Shown here: positions 6,543 through 47,671 of the stretch, piece by piece
How positions within the stretch are numbered: the first letter of the stretch is position 1
Layout of the letters: each line of letters begins with the position of its first letter
Assembly (NCBI GenBank): GCA_002726655.1
Contig: PBRP01000143.1
Location: 1 to 50,528, forward strand
Origin: Gammaproteobacteria bacterium
GTDB taxonomy: Bacteria; Pseudomonadota; Gammaproteobacteria; Pseudomonadales; Azotimanducaceae
Direction: 5' to 3'
DNA: 50,528 nucleotides
Made by a program: the position numbers and the translations under genes
Notes under the pieces: model-generated
Database searches by the model: none
What the model saw: the letters and a program-made list of their open reading frames with translations, nothing else
Told to the model about the DNA's origin: nothing

Positions 6543-7112
6543 CTAACCCAATTTTGGCGGCGCGTATATTTTGACCGTTATTTCGTCACCCTTGAAAATC
6601 TCACCTGGCACATCTATCGACCCAACCACACCACGCTTCTTCCTCGCTTCAGTTAAGAATTGTTTCCTGGTCAGGGGTTCTCCAGATCTTTTTGCATATA
6701 ACCCGGCTATCTTGTCACCCATATCGGTACAAGGGGGATTGTAATCCTCAACGACCAGCACAGCCCCGGAAGGGAACACCAGTTTGGAGCCCTTCGGGAG
6801 GGCTGAAAATCCCTCAATTCCACGAATACAAACATTGGTGCCAAGGTCTTCCGCTGTCAGCGCTCGATCCAGGTCCAGTGCTTCCCGAATTTCTGCTAAC
6901 TCCTCTTCTGACACACCAGACCACTGACGATTATTTCTCCGTACAGTACCTTCCGGCTCCGTGTCTCCTTCCCAACAGACTCGCGAAAAGCCCCTGTGCC
7001 TGTCGCTAATGAACCCATCGAGTTCCGCAACAACGGAATCACAGGGTTGTTTGCTCATATCCTCCCCGGTACCAACATGCAGTGATACCAATGTCGCTAT
7101 CTGTTTTTTCAT
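6543..7112 (-). CDS. MOSC domain protein
   Basis: MOSC domains bind molybdenum cofactor or carry sulfur in molybdoenzyme maturation and in YiiM/mARC-type detoxification. I chose the ATG at 7112 (MKKQIATLVSLHVG), giving 189 residues, because the family begins with this strand; an ATG at 7172 would add 20 non-family residues. Family features are the early GFxxDRH-like segment, LGTNVCIRGI, the basic LPKGSKLVF strand and NPPCTDMG, whose Cys is the usual cofactor-binding residue. It stands alone without the ferredoxin or beta-barrel domains of larger MOSC proteins. Confidence 0.85.
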   Translation of the reverse strand: MKKQIATLVSLHVGTGEDMSKQPCDSVVAELDGFISDRHRGFSRVCWEGDTEPEGTVRRNNRQWSGVSEEELAEIREALDLDRALTAEDLGTNVCIRGIEGFSALPKGSKLVFPSGAVLVVEDYNPPCTDMGDKIAGLYAKRSGEPLTRKQFLTEARKKRGVVGSIDVPGEIFKGDEITVKIYAPPKLG

Positions 7113-7248
7113 ATCAGCAATCCGGGTGAGCCTTTCTGGTAAGGAGTGTAAAACTCGAAGAGAGCATTTCACTCCGCGCCTGAACGCTTGTAGAGGATCA
7201 GCACCAGTCAGCTATTCTCTGACGGCAGCTGGAATCGTACGGCATTTA

Positions 7249-8028
7249 TTAATTCTTCTTGGTCAACCGGTATTGGGCCGGCGTTTGTCCACATGACTTT
7301 TTGAAAGCAGCGTAAAATGCTGAATTCGAGTTGAAACCCACTTCAAAGGCTATGCTCAGTATAGCCTGGAGATGACGATCTTCCAGCCGCAGGAGTTTTT
7401 TTGCGTCTTCCACCCGGTACTGGTTCAGGTAGTCAAAAAAGCTCATATCAAACCCGGCATTGATAACCTGCGACAAATGATTCACGGGACATTCAACAAG
7501 AGCAGCCAGTTTGGGAAGTGTCAGATCCGGGTTCAGGTAAAGCTGTTCGGTCTGCATCATGGTTGCTAATTGATCTTTATAATGCTCCAACTGCTCGGGA
7601 CTCAGTCCGGACTTGGCGTACTTCTGTGAAGGCACTGAAGGATTGGCATAACCGGCATCAGATATTTGATAGTAATCGGCAATCCTGGCGGCAGAACCCC
7701 CCTCCATGGTAATGAACTCAGCACCAAACCAGGGCACTCCAACCTCTTCACCAGTATCAGGATCAATGGACGAAACCCTATACTGAAATGCAATGGTACC
7801 ATCGCCGCTCATGATCTCACCCATAACATCATAGCGGTTGTTTTCCTTGCTGAAGGCTTCACGCAGATTAACGATCAGTTCATCCTTGGCGAATTGTTTA
7901 TCTTTCGCTATATCACTATAGGTGCCATCGATAGCCAAATGATCGGCAACAAAGTTAGCATCTCTCTTATTCCATGCTTCAAAGTAGCTTTCAACGAAAT
8001 CTATAACACTTTTTTTTTGTTTTGCCAT
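7249..8028 (-). CDS. AraC-type regulator with an N-terminal NTF2/SnoaL-like domain
   Basis: I take the ATG at 8028 (MAKQKKS), giving 259 residues; the frame extends further upstream but without family sequence. Residues about 6-122 resemble a SnoaL/NTF2-like pocket (FVESYFEAWNKRD, then FQYRVSSIDPDTGEEV). Residues about 150-255 form an AraC-type double helix-turn-helix; the second unit reads ILSIAFEVGFNSNSAFYAAF and ends QTPAQYR. AraC proteins usually carry a cupin or GATase-like sensor, so an NTF2-like sensor is uncommon. The gene lies 112 bp downstream of cassette A on the same strand, making it the best local candidate regulator of that cassette. Confidence 0.85.
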   Translation of the reverse strand: MAKQKKSVIDFVESYFEAWNKRDANFVADHLAIDGTYSDIAKDKQFAKDELIVNLREAFSKENNRYDVMGEIMSGDGTIAFQYRVSSIDPDTGEEVGVPWFGAEFITMEGGSAARIADYYQISDAGYANPSVPSQKYAKSGLSPEQLEHYKDQLATMMQTEQLYLNPDLTLPKLAALVECPVNHLSQVINAGFDMSFFDYLNQYRVEDAKKLLRLEDRHLQAILSIAFEVGFNSNSAFYAAFKKSCGQTPAQYRLTKKN

Positions 8029-42985: not shown

Positions 42986-43519
42986 TTACATTTTTAATTC
43001 TGGTTTGAATCCAGCAGCACGTGCTTCCCAGGTTTCGGAAATGGTTGCACCATAGGACGTAAGCGCCTTTTTGGATTCATCGCTATCAACTTCCTGCAGA
43101 CATCGGGCAGCGTTACTGCGCAAACGAGCATCTGGCTCCTTCAGCAGGGGAATCAGCATCGATTCGACTTTAGCCGGGTTTCGCTGTAGAAACGCTGTGC
43201 AAAAATCTTGTACCAGTTGCCTTCGTCTCAGACTATCCTTTCCCAACGTGATCTCTCGCTCAAAATATTCCAACACCTCATCATTAGGGAAAATCGTCAG
43301 CGCAAGCGCAGCCCGGGCACGAATGAAGTTAACCTGCTGCTCATCATCCGCGATTGCCAGCAGTGGCTTGTAAACATCAGGGCCAATAAGCCGCAGCTTT
43401 TCCTCGGGAAGTTGCCACTCGTAACCCTGCAGCAGGTCAATAACATCGCCATCAGCAGGAAAAGCGGGAACAGCCCAAAGGCTTGTGACGGTCAGAAAAA
43501 TTGTAATTGAGAGATATCT
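42986..43519 (-). CDS. Exported HEAT-repeat-like protein of unknown function
   Basis: I prefer the GTG at 43519 (V-R-Y-L-S-I-T-I-F-L), which has CGGGAG 6 nt upstream and opens directly with a signal peptide ending near AFPA; an ATG at 43552 would place 11 polar residues ahead of it. The mature part has helical repeats resembling HEAT/PBS-lyase units (FIRARAALALTIFPNDEV and DARLRSNAARCLQEVDSDESKKAL). About 177 residues. It probably binds a protein in the periplasm. It is 3' of glmS on the same strand, 16 bp away. Confidence 0.7.
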   Translation of the reverse strand, partial: RYLSITIFLTVTSLWAVPAFPADGDVIDLLQGYEWQLPEEKLRLIGPDVYKPLLAIADDEQQVNFIRARAALALTIFPNDEVLEYFEREITLGKDSLRRRQLVQDFCTAFLQRNPAKVESMLIPLLKEPDARLRSNAARCLQEVDSDESKKALTSYGATISETWEARAAGFKPELKM

Positions 43520-43568
43520 CACAATACACTCCCGGTCAGAATACTTAATCATTGCCCATAATATACCT

Positions 43569-45311
43569 TTATTGCACGGTTACACTCTTGGCGAGATTTC
43601 GAGGCCTGTCTGGATTAACACCAGCCTGAATACCCAGGTGGTAAGCTATGAGCTGACCAGGAATCAGCCCACAAATCGCAGCAAGCAGAGGATCTGACAC
43701 GATAGGCATGGGGACAAAGTCATCAAACAGTTCATTGTCCTCATAAGCAATACCAACCAGGTGCGCACCACGAGACTTCACTTCCGAAGCGACGTTCAGC
43801 ATATAGGAATCGTCCCTGTCGACGTATAGCATCACTGGAACTCCCTTTTCTATCAGTGCGAGGACACCATGCTTGAGCTCCCCTGCAGCGAAAGCCTCGG
43901 CATGGGAGTAGCTTGCTTCCTTTATATTCAGGGCAGCTATCATCGCGCATGGCAAAAAGAGCCCCCTGCCAAGAACGAAGATACTGTGAGCGGACACAAG
44001 CCTTTTCGTTACCTCCCTGATTTTCCACGACACTGTCCGGGTCAGATATTGACTGAGAACATGACTCAGCTGGTCAATAGCTGCCCCGCCATCCTGTCCC
44101 TTCAGCCGTTTTGCCAGCAGATAGCCGAAAGTAATCTGCGCGGTTGCTGACTTGGTAGAAAGAACACAAATTTCCGGCCCGCTATGATTGGCAAAACTAA
44201 ACTCAGACATTCTGGCCAGGGTCGACATTGGCATATTGACCAGTGAGGCCACGCGCATACCCCGCGACTCGGCCCTTTCAACGGCACTGATAGTATCCGC
44301 GGTTTCACCGCTCTGACTGACAGCCAAAACAAAATCACCCTGCCCATACAGTGCCTCCAAAGATTCAATCTCATAGGCGGGTACCGCAAGCGCCTTTAAA
44401 CCCGTCACTTCACGGAGCAACCAGGCAATCTGCAAGCAAGTGTAGTAGGCACCACCGGCACCCGTTAGCAGAAGATTGCCACGTCGTTCCAATTCCAGAA
44501 CAAAATTTCCAAGATCCGCGCCGGTGGATTTCGCCTGTCTGGATACCGTTTGCCATTGCTCCATAATCTCTTTCATCATGAAATGTGGATAGCCATCCTT
44601 ACTAAATTCTGAATTCGACACTTCCACCTGGACCCAATCGATATCGCACAGACTTAAGGTCGCATCGTACAGCGCGATACACTTTCCTTTGATTCTGACA
44701 ATGTGCTGCTCAGGGATTGGACAATAAAGCGAGGTATAGGGAGCAAAACTGATAAGGTCCGAGCTGAGAAAATACTGGCTTTCTGTCCTGCTGACCAGCA
44801 AAGGAGAGCCGTGCCGGGCAGCTAACATCTCACCGTCCGGAAATAGAACCAGAATCGTATTCCTGCCACCCAGCCTGTCAAGCACATCACGCAGTGCCCC
44901 CTCCCTTGAAGCGGCCTTGCTCAGGGCTGTCTCAAGGAGCCGAACAATAACCTGGGTATCGCTCACATCTGCACAGGTGATATCGGTTTTTCTTAGATCC
45001 TGGTAATTCTCCACGATGCCGTTGTGCACCAGTGAGAACGAATTGTCATGCGCCGAGTGTGGATGGCAATTCTCAAGACTGACGGTCCCGTGAGTTGCCC
45101 AGCGCGTGTGCCCCACAACTGCGCTACATTGAGGCAACCTGTCCCCCAGGTCTTCCAGCGGTTCCAGGCTCTTCCGCGTTTGTATAGCACCACCTGACCC
45201 GGTGACCCAGGCAAAACCATAGCTGTCATAACCCCGATACTCCAGCCGCTTCAAGCCCTCTACCGCCAGACTGCCAACATCTTCACCTGTACACGCAATA
45301 ATTCCACACAT
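43569..45311 (-). CDS. glmS: Glutamine-fructose-6-phosphate aminotransferase (isomerising)
   Basis: Makes glucosamine 6-phosphate from fructose 6-phosphate and glutamine, the first step to UDP-GlcNAc. 580 residues, slightly shorter than the usual 600-610. The N-terminal glutaminase starts MCGIIACTGE with catalytic Cys2, then EYRGYDSYGFAW and GHTRWATHG. Two SIS sugar-isomerase domains follow (LTGAGGAYYTC and SQSGETADT in the first), and the C terminus is the classic DRPRNLAKSVTVQ. No glmU is nearby. The start lies directly against an operator-like site shared with the divergent TrmB-family gene, and no clear ribosome site precedes it. Confidence 0.95.
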   Translation of the reverse strand: MCGIIACTGEDVGSLAVEGLKRLEYRGYDSYGFAWVTGSGGAIQTRKSLEPLEDLGDRLPQCSAVVGHTRWATHGTVSLENCHPHSAHDNSFSLVHNGIVENYQDLRKTDITCADVSDTQVIVRLLETALSKAASREGALRDVLDRLGGRNTILVLFPDGEMLAARHGSPLLVSRTESQYFLSSDLISFAPYTSLYCPIPEQHIVRIKGKCIALYDATLSLCDIDWVQVEVSNSEFSKDGYPHFMMKEIMEQWQTVSRQAKSTGADLGNFVLELERRGNLLLTGAGGAYYTCLQIAWLLREVTGLKALAVPAYEIESLEALYGQGDFVLAVSQSGETADTISAVERAESRGMRVASLVNMPMSTLARMSEFSFANHSGPEICVLSTKSATAQITFGYLLAKRLKGQDGGAAIDQLSHVLSQYLTRTVSWKIREVTKRLVSAHSIFVLGRGLFLPCAMIAALNIKEASYSHAEAFAAGELKHGVLALIEKGVPVMLYVDRDDSYMLNVASEVKSRGAHLVGIAYEDNELFDDFVPMPIVSDPLLAAICGLIPGQLIAYHLGIQAGVNPDRPRNLAKSVTVQ

Positions 45312-45312
45312 T

Positions 45313-45331
45313 TGTCATTTTCTATTTGACA
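45313..45331. promoter_or_regulatory. Operator-like site 1 (TGTCA-N9-TGACA) at the glmS start
   Basis: TGTCA at 45313-45317 and TGACA at 45327-45331 form an inverted repeat with a 9-bp spacer; it can also be read as TTTGTCAT and TTTGACAT in direct order 14 bp apart. It abuts the glmS ATG, so a bound protein would block initiation. A matching site lies 73 bp away, centre to centre. Confidence 0.65.
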
Positions 45332-45385
45332 TTTATACACGTTTTGAACCAATATATACAACTATATAAAGACTTCAATACTATT

Positions 45386-45404
45386 TGTCATCATTTTATT
45401 GACA
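45386..45404. promoter_or_regulatory. Operator-like site 2 (TGTCA-N9-TGACA) at the trmB-like start
   Basis: TGTCA at 45386-45390 and TGACA at 45400-45404 repeat the layout of site 1 with the same 9-bp spacer. It ends 4 bp before the ATG of the TrmB-family gene. The 73-bp centre spacing is close to seven helical turns, so both sites would face the same side of the DNA and could be bridged. Confidence 0.65.
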
Positions 45405-45408
45405 TTAA

Positions 45409-46155
45409 ATGATAATTCATGAAACCTTGCAGCAGATTGGACTTTCGGATCGACAGACCGATATATACCTGACGCTGTTAAAACAGGGACCGGGTTCAAT
45501 TCGCGACATCGCCACAGGTGCTGGCCTCAATCGCGGCACGACCTACGAAGAACTGAAAACCCTGCGAACACGTTCGCTGGTGAGCTATTTCCCAAAGGGC
45601 AAGCGAAAGTTTTTCTGTGCCGAGCCCCCGGAACAACTTGTGAAAATTGCCGAGGAGAAACAGGATGTCCTGGCGAGGGCAACCAATGTCCTGCGCCAGG
45701 ACATCCTTCCCGATCTCAGTAGCGTCACCCCGGATTCAAGCATCACTAATGTGCATCACTACGAGGGGGATGAAGGCATTGAATTTGTACTAAAAGACAT
45801 TCTTCGGACGGTAGAAACTCAATCCCAAAAGCAGTACAGGGTCTATTCATCTAAACAGATCCGCAAATATCTGTACCGTCCGTTTCCCAACTTCACCAGG
45901 CAGCGGGTTCAAAAGGGAATCTCTGTCAATGTTATAGCGATTGGAGATGGCGGCGAAGATGCCCCACTTGCTGAAAGGAAATGGATAAAGACTGAAGATA
46001 GTGGCAACACGGCCAGTTACGTTGCGATCTATCCGCCGAAATGTGCCATGATTTCCCTTGTCCATGGGGACTACCCTATCGCTGTCCTGCTAAATTCGGA
46101 CGCCATTGCACTCGTAATGCAGATTTCCTTTGACACCCTGTGGCACCGCCTGTGA
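45409..46155 (+). CDS. TrmB-family transcriptional regulator
   Basis: 248 residues. The N-terminal winged helix (about 1-75) reads LQQIGLSDRQTDIYLTLLK, then DIATGAGLNRGTTYEELKTL, the TrmB pattern; a coiled linker and an effector domain (about 100-248; YRVYSSKQIRKYLYRPFPNF) follow. TrmB proteins sense sugars in archaea and some bacteria. Divergence from glmS and the paired operators suggest it controls glmS and itself in response to amino-sugar or hexose-phosphate levels. The ATG lacks a clear ribosome site and the transcript may be leaderless. Confidence 0.85.
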   Translation: MIIHETLQQIGLSDRQTDIYLTLLKQGPGSIRDIATGAGLNRGTTYEELKTLRTRSLVSYFPKGKRKFFCAEPPEQLVKIAEEKQDVLARATNVLRQDILPDLSSVTPDSSITNVHHYEGDEGIEFVLKDILRTVETQSQKQYRVYSSKQIRKYLYRPFPNFTRQRVQKGISVNVIAIGDGGEDAPLAERKWIKTEDSGNTASYVAIYPPKCAMISLVHGDYPIAVLLNSDAIALVMQISFDTLWHRL

Positions 46156-46492: not shown

Positions 46493-47671
46493 ATGCCGGA
46501 TATATTGGATAAATTGGAAGGGGCCTTGTCAGAAGTTGAGGATCAGCTTCTTGCAGAATTTGAGCGCATCCGTAAAACCCTGTCTGGGGAGGCCTACAGT
46601 CCCATTGATGCTGGCGTAAAAAATGCCTTGAATGACGTCGTGATGGACCTCTGGCACCAGCTGGAACACAGTGGCGACAGGAAAAATCTAACCCTTCGTA
46701 CGGAACGACATGAAACACTGTCTGTTCGTATGATCGTGCTCAAAAAGCTGCTGGATGCAAAAATACCCACGGCGTTCCTGGCAGAGGCTCAGGAAGAAAT
46801 CGAAAGCGCCAGACATTCCGTTGAAAAGAAATCCATACCTGCCAGCAGGAATGCTGAACCAATAGCGGAAACTATTGAAGATGAGATAGGGCTTCTTGAG
46901 AAAATTATGCAGTTTTTCAGGGGCAAACCGACCCCGGAAAGCGATACCCCTGACAGCTTTGACCCAGATCAGGAAAAGGTAGAGGTGTACCTCGATAGCG
47001 TGTATACCACGGCTCAGCACCTGGCGACACTGGCTGATCGGTTCCAGACCATAGGCGACGATAAAGACATGATGGATGCTGCACTAAGTGGCAAAGCCGT
47101 GTTCGAATCCCGTGAACTAAGCTCTGGAGGACAGGAACCGGAGGAACAGGGCTCTGATGAAAAAGCCCAGTCCCCGGAAGAGATTCGGCGAAAACTAGAA
47201 AAATCGAATAGACAATCGAGCGGAGCATCTTCTTTTGAATCCCGGGAGCTGACTTCAGCTGCCCCTGCCCCTGCACAGGCGAAGCAGAAGAGGGAAGTGG
47301 CTCAAACTCCAGAAGCAATCAGGAAAAAACTGTCAGGTGCCGGACCAAGTGCCGGTGGCGCTTCAACATTTGAATCAAAAGAGTTAAGCGCAACTATGCC
47401 ACCGGCAGCCGTCAAACCAGTAGCTGAGAAAAAATCAGCGGCCAGGAAGCGCGACGTTGCTCAAACACCCGACGAAATTCGACGAAAACTCGAAGCCAGG
47501 CAGGGAGATTCAGGTTCTTCGGGTAAGGCATCATTCGGGGCAAAAGATATTGAACCCGTCGCGCCCCAGGTGCCTGAAAAACCAGACAGGCCGGTCAAGG
47601 AAGAGACGGAAAAGCGCCCCGCTGGCAAGGCAGTGTTTGAGTCAAAGGACCTTTCCACGGACAACAACTAG
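46493..47671 (+). CDS. Repeat-tailed protein of unknown function
   Basis: 392 residues, no signal peptide or membrane helix. Residues 1-190 are mostly helical. Residues about 200-392 look disordered and carry two alternating short motifs: F-E-S-[RK]-[ED]-L at 204, 248, 293 and 382 (a degenerate FGAKDI at 348) and Q-[ST]-P-[DE]-x-I-R-[RK]-K-L at 226, 271 and 324. The spacers are rich in Ala, Pro, Lys and Glu. The repeats suggest a multivalent scaffold that binds the same partner several times. I do not recognise the family. It converges with the histidine phosphatase gene. Confidence 0.75.
   Translation: MPDILDKLEGALSEVEDQLLAEFERIRKTLSGEAYSPIDAGVKNALNDVVMDLWHQLEHSGDRKNLTLRTERHETLSVRMIVLKKLLDAKIPTAFLAEAQEEIESARHSVEKKSIPASRNAEPIAETIEDEIGLLEKIMQFFRGKPTPESDTPDSFDPDQEKVEVYLDSVYTTAQHLATLADRFQTIGDDKDMMDAALSGKAVFESRELSSGGQEPEEQGSDEKAQSPEEIRRKLEKSNRQSSGASSFESRELTSAAPAPAQAKQKREVAQTPEAIRKKLSGAGPSAGGASTFESKELSATMPPAAVKPVAEKKSAARKRDVAQTPDEIRRKLEARQGDSGSSGKASFGAKDIEPVAPQVPEKPDRPVKEETEKRPAGKAVFESKDLSTDNN

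Follow-up and report, generated by a model that had tools for sequence, protein, structure and literature searches.

A regulator of the TrmB family probably controls glucosamine-6-phosphate synthesis locally and in a position-dependent manner, activating the gene glmS2 from one of two operator-like sites. The arrangement was found in a 50,528-nucleotide stretch of contig PBRP01000143.1 (the whole stretch analysed, hereafter the window) from a gammaproteobacterium of the Azotimanducaceae. The evidence is computational: conserved sites that are linked to the regulator, promoter elements at a fixed distance from these sites, and a predicted TrmB-like fold of the protein. To our knowledge, transcriptional control of amino-sugar synthesis is known mainly from enterobacterial NagC. 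NagC belongs to the ROK family.

The second GlmS and the TrmB-family regulator

The gene glmS2 (43569..45311, minus strand) encodes a second glutamine--fructose-6-phosphate transaminase of 580 aa. The protein scores 444.4 bits against the NCBIfam model TIGR01135 (glmS), with a cut-off of 418.05, and it has the N-terminal catalytic cysteine; together, these features place it in the GlmS family. The GlmS motifs present are the MCGI start, HTRWATHG, HNGI, SQSGETADT, GELKHG and RNLAKSVTV. The first-pass annotation had called this gene glmS, which is correct as to the family. However, the gene is a second, divergent paralogue, and the canonical housekeeping glmS, which is 36% identical to glmS2, lies elsewhere in the genome, directly behind glmU on contig C28. 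The CGTS loop is altered in glmS2. All 11 aligned glmS2 proteins have GAGGA or GAGAA at this position, whereas all four canonical proteins have CGTS or CGSS. We take this loop to be the phosphate-binding part of the sugar-phosphate site, and its change therefore weakens the claim for the substrate of glmS2 but not the claim for its family. Judged from the sequence, the altered loop may confer altered kinetics or a different substrate.

The regulator gene (45409..46155, plus strand) encodes 248 aa, and its assignment to the TrmB family comes from Pfam and from a predicted structure. PF01978 (TrmB) scores 43 bits against a cut-off of 25.6, which places the protein among the TrmB winged-helix proteins. 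The predicted structure (mean pLDDT 87.6, pTM 0.56) consists of a winged helix at about residues 1-75, a long helix at 75-106 and a PLD-like effector domain at about 112-248. TrmBL2 (5bqt) and TrmB (3qph, 2f5t) have the same domain order. The predicted regulator matches 5bqt with a Z score of 13.2 over 234 residues, and its effector domain matches the sugar-binding domain of TrmB with a Z score of 11.2 and an rmsd of 3.1 over 122 residues. The alignments to 5bqt and 2f5t identify a PLD-like C-terminal domain, a fold that is common in itself and shared with enzymes that score equally high against the regulator (NucT, Z 12.2). Because the full-length rmsd to 5bqt is 19.1, the domain orientations differ from those in TrmBL2, which is termed a chromatin protein in the title of its PDB entry. 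PF11495, presumably the TrmB effector-domain family, is absent among the Pfam matches of the regulator at E 0.01. The protein also falls short of the NCBIfam TrmBL1/TrmB equivalog cut-offs (23 bits against 650, and 21.5 against 600). When orthologs were sought in 369 genomes sampled across the class, the regulator's own genome alone matched at E 1e-50, and the regulator family is therefore patchy.

Other genes in the neighbourhood encode a HEAT-repeat protein behind glmS2 (42986-43552) and a 392-aa protein with a repeated FESRELTS / AQTPEAIRKKL-like unit (46493-47671). At two related loci, L008 and L023, a similar-looking HEAT-type protein adjoins the regulator without glmS2, and the paired sites are kept with 0-2 mismatches. 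Proteins resembling the 392-aa repeat protein come after the regulator at these two loci.

The operator pair in the window

Two putative operators with the exact form TGTCA-N9-TGACA lie between glmS2 and the regulator gene. Site 1 (45313..45331, TGTCATTTTCTATTTGACA) is 1 nt from the glmS2 start codon and covers the start/ribosome-binding region of that gene. Site 2 (45386..45404, TGTCATCATTTTATTGACA) ends 4 nt before the start codon of the regulator. The chance expectation for exact matches in the window is 0.08, and two per window occurred in 0/100 shuffles. Both of the twin sites that the first-pass annotation had placed between glmS and a TrmB-family gene are thus exact and beyond chance, and its statement that the 73 bp between the two site starts come close to seven turns of DNA is correct as arithmetic. 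When two mismatches are tolerated, matches in the window (25) are no more numerous than expected (25.1), and the informative sites are therefore the near-exact ones. The genome of 3.92 Mb holds four exact sites in total. The other two have spacers richer in G+C and lie within open frames 921 and 150 codons long.

Conservation of the sites

Both sites are conserved wherever the intact gene pair was found. The window and 12 relatives make up 13 glmS2 loci, and all 13 carry both sites at 0-1 mismatch. The spacing between the sites is 73 bp in seven loci, 72 bp in one, 71 bp in two, and 92, 136 and 140 bp in one each; these are too few independent values to judge helical phasing. A fourteenth locus, L057, is cut by a contig end. 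It keeps an exact site 2, and its glmS2 ends another contig.

In other genera, the regulator faces glmU instead. Such divergent regulator-glmU loci occur in Amphritea, Neptuniibacter, Neptunomonas, Nitrincola and Marinobacterium. The site lies between the genes in 24/24 of them, G067 included, and each of these loci was confirmed to have glmU in divergent orientation. These loci usually have one near-exact site, with an exception in G067, where a second site has a spacer of 10. Marinomonas differs again: the flanks of its regulator loci are without glmS, and none of 29 loci has an N9 site within one mismatch upstream of the regulator. The single Marinomonas locus viewed in detail, L030, has the regulator near atpC. 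In this locus, from M. fungiae, two adjacent genes near the regulator (6864-7898) look atpC-like by eye. If the regulator controls glmUS, the site would be expected at glmU of Marinomonas even though this gene is not linked to the regulator, and an exact site was indeed present upstream of glmU in 28/28 Marinomonas genomes examined. In M. fungiae, the glmU site is the sole match to an extended 21-base form of the pattern (at most one mismatch) in 4.2 Mb.

The association was then counted across genomes. The regulator sample comprised matches in 12 of 97 genomes, the window's own genome included (the match in G033 is a fragment), and 65 loci from a genome collection. A genome counted as regulator-free when nothing matched the regulator at E 1e-10, and a glmU site had to lie in the 400 bp before the glmU match and have no more than one mismatch. 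Such a site is present in 34 of 48 genomes with the regulator and in 0 of 78 regulator-free relatives (Fisher 7e-20, kinship ignored). Of the 34 sites, 33 are exact; 31 are at glmU genes not linked to the regulator, and three at glmU genes divergent from it. Kinship among the genomes, with 28 Marinomonas among the 31 unlinked cases, means that the counts are not independent. The regulator-free set leaves out G008, G022 and G049, all with glmU matches. G033 is in neither group, and the short stretch upstream of its glmU is without the site. L048 was left out, G111 (= G006) has no glmU match, and G140, with a partial glmU only, was counted through its regulator locus L079.

Genomes without the glmU site tend to have glmS2. 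This is the case for 13 of the 14 regulator-bearing genomes that lack the site, and in 11 of these 13 glmS2 lies beside the regulator on one contig. In G136 the locus is cut by a contig end, and in G004/G109 glmS2 and the regulator are joined via the same site pair repeated at two contig ends. The regulator-bearing genome G041 has neither a glmU site nor a glmS2 at E 1e-110. A genome-wide search in 15 of the 34 glmU-site genomes found no glmS2, and six of the 97 genomes have it, every one with the regulator. Absence of glmS2 means no match at E 1e-110, and diverged copies could escape this threshold (the copy in G112 has 2.9e-99).

These patterns bear on whether the sites belong to the regulator at all. 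They could be bound by another co-occurring transcription factor, with the TrmB gene a mere neighbour. However, site and regulator co-occur even when they are unlinked, as at glmU of Marinomonas, and the glmU site is missing in 78/78 regulator-free relatives. We regard this alternative as improbable. Conservation at loci that keep the gene pair and co-occurrence with the regulator support the reading of the sites as putative operators tied to this TrmB-family regulator and to glm genes. The first-pass annotation had set loss of the sites in relatives with the pair as grounds for refutation, and its proposal withstood this check.

Among 30 regulators placed in a tree, the 13 rows of glmU type, which come from Oceanospirillaceae and other families, are apart from 14 glmS2-type rows. 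Three further rows (L007, L008 and L023), in which glmS2 does not adjoin the regulator, are also apart from the glmU type. The target label changes three times on the tree, compared with 9.9 times in shuffles. The two rows from Kangiellaceae/Pleioneaceae group with Zooshikella and G094 (support 100/99), and within this clade they are sister to Zooshikella with weaker support (84/80). Their placement would fit a transfer of the regulator-glmS2 pair.

Promoter geometry

Site 2 lies just upstream of a predicted glmS2 promoter. A promoter scan placed a -35 element, TTGAAG, at 45373..45378 on the minus strand, 7 bp from site 2, and a -10 element, TATATT, at 45351..45356 on the same strand, with a 16-bp spacer. 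Read on the minus strand, the order in the window is site 2 - N7 - TTGAAG - N16 - TATATT. The consensus scan returned two promoter-like sites, compared with 1.2 in shuffles. Transcription would start near 45344, so that site 2 would be centred around -51 and site 1 would span roughly +14 to +32. TATATT occupies the equivalent position at L020, L021 and L024. The regulator gene yielded no convincing promoter. The A+T-rich centre was also considered as an archaeal TATA box or a leaderless start, and this was rejected: the relatives are gammaproteobacterial, and a bacterial promoter fits.

The 7-bp distance is widely conserved. Toward the glm genes, a TTG starts exactly 7 bp past the site in 60 of 68 aligned sites, namely 8/13 glmS2 loci, 28/31 unlinked glmU loci and 24/24 divergent glmU loci. 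In the opposite direction, TTG is found at this offset in 1/44; the 24 divergent loci were too short to count. The next commonest place for TTG is offset 2, in 13/31 unlinked glmU loci. Five of the 13 glmS2 loci are without TTG at offset 7 (L028, L040, L061, L078 and L011). A -10-like hexamer (TATATT, TCTAAT, TAAAGT) often follows 16-17 bp further on, as judged by eye in the same alignment. The geometry of window site 2 relative to its -35 is that seen upstream of glmU in the Marinomonas and Neptuniibacter relatives. Beyond TTG the -35 hexamers are poor, as would be expected for activated promoters. A site at a fixed distance just upstream of the -35 suits activation, whereas repression would be the natural role of one located downstream of the promoter. 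In 12 of the 13 glmS2 loci, the spacer of the glmS2-side site contains a Shine-Dalgarno-like run (GGA, AGG or GAG); the window is the exception.

The same geometry bears on the mode of control. The first-pass annotation had proposed that both genes are repressed by a looped or paired protein. As pure repression, this would place the regulator on both sites, with the 73 bp between them looped, and keep glmS2 and the regulator gene off until an amino-sugar signal releases it. The two sites flank the predicted promoter, their spacing is 71-73 bp in 10/13 glmS2 loci, and site 1 lies over the glmS2 start region with the spacer runs just described. The glmS2 loci, with their two sites, could form such a loop. 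However, site 2 is activator-like, being 7 bp from the -35, and a repressor has no need of a fixed distance to that element. At unlinked glmU, the sites lie upstream of the predicted -35 and the promoter is not overlapped. No further N9 site within one mismatch was found at these loci save L117, and glmU loci as a rule have a single near-exact site and thus no looping partner. Furthermore, spacings of 92, 136 and 140 bp occur among the glmS2 loci. Repression of both genes thus finds partial support, and pure repression we consider unlikely.

The palindromes could also be RNA hairpins in 5' leaders that present the Shine-Dalgarno sequence in the loop and control translation. The runs in the glmS2-side spacers agree with this, and four of eight changed arm positions still pair when G-U is counted. 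On the other hand, among 52 distinct sites the arm changes are one-sided in 8/8 cases and two-sided in none, although these are small numbers. The palindrome also lies upstream of the predicted promoter at glmU, as does site 2 toward glmS2, and for this reason the glm transcript would not contain it. An Rfam scan returned no family at the gathering score. Control by such hairpins appears highly improbable.

Size of the regulon

Further targets were sought in 15 genomes with the extended 21-base pattern, allowing at most one mismatch and using the reversed pattern as a control. In most of the 15, the counts were near or below the control. They exceeded it in the window's own genome (G000; 6 vs 0), in G004 (10 vs 1) and in G006 (3 vs 0). 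Matches away from the glm/regulator locus numbered four in G000, six in G004 and one in G006. All lie inside open frames of at least 247 codons, and for this reason no further target was seen in these three genomes. In the window's own genome, all further matches to the exact and extended patterns are inside open frames. Two coding matches are shared, between G000 C11 and G002 C20 and between G006 C162 and G004 C90. In the other 12 genomes, five extra matches were viewed (L223, L226, L233, L236 and L248). One of them, in a Pseudomaricurvus genome (L233, 1502), is a perfect extended site in a 304-codon frame that resembles a LysR-type regulator by eye, with no tie to glm genes. Judged on the exact and extended patterns, the search suggests a very small regulon.

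Relation to known systems

Archaeal TrmBL1 is reported to activate from upstream and to repress from downstream of promoters (PMC4706686). This rule is largely obeyed in vitro and in expression data, and TrmBL1 may do both at one shared region (PMC4706686). TrmBL1 of Pyrococcus furiosus resembles the present system in its winged-helix TrmB domain and in a palindromic site, which is a putative operator here (PMC4706686). The differences are considerable. The window regulator is gammaproteobacterial and has 248 aa, compared with 341 positions in the NCBIfam TrmBL1 model. The TrmBL1 site is TATCAC-N5-GTGATA, in contrast to TGTCA-N9-TGACA here. TrmBL1 commands a global sugar regulon, whereas very few targets and bacterial promoters are apparent here.

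E. coli offers a second comparison. NagC is needed to activate glmUS P1 and has a site beside this promoter (PMC2806358). The proposed likeness is a glmUS operon under activator control from a promoter-adjacent site; NagC differs in having its own 23-bp site and in also repressing the nag and man operons (PMC2806358). In the one open literature library searched, no earlier description of glm control by a TrmB-type protein was found. The TrmB family, glmS and a regulator occurred together there only in a Haloferax study.

A model of position-dependent control

In the model we favour, the regulator would bind TGTCA-N9-TGACA and set the level of glucosamine-6-phosphate synthesis, presumably in response to an amino-sugar or hexose-phosphate signal. 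Bound at site 2, near -51, it would activate glmS2, and the equivalent glmU site would activate glmUS in relatives without glmS2. The same binding at site 2 would repress the regulator gene, because this site abuts its start codon. Site 1, downstream of the promoter, would serve as a second contact that damps glmS2 through a roadblock or through a 73-bp loop to site 2. These roles are assigned on the basis of the TrmBL1 position rule and of the NagC-activated glmUS. Given the Shine-Dalgarno-like runs in the spacers, binding at site 1 would also cover the ribosome-binding region in the DNA. Several observations weigh against the favoured model. Occupancy of site 1, which covers the start region of glmS2, would speak for this gene being repressed. 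Further points against the model are the five glmS2 loci without TTG at offset 7, the TTG at offset 2 in unlinked glmU loci, the genome G041, the two promoter-like sites where shuffles give 1.2, the lack of a convincing promoter for the regulator gene and the relatedness of the genomes counted.

A broader reading, which we offer tentatively and hold to be doubtful, is that the regulator and glmS2 form a compact unit that has taken over control of amino-sugar entry in several families, where glmUS is without the operator. The added operator would turn an activator of glmUS into a bidirectional governor of glmS2, and the altered loop would mean different kinetics or a different substrate.

Amino-sugar synthesis is essential. 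In marine gammaproteobacteria, it appears from the genomic patterns to be controlled by a regulator of a family best known from archaea, with a defined putative operator that accompanies glmUS in some genomes and a second glmS in others, and with a fixed promoter geometry. The system would provide a simple bacterial test case for a TrmB protein that activates or represses according to the position of its site.
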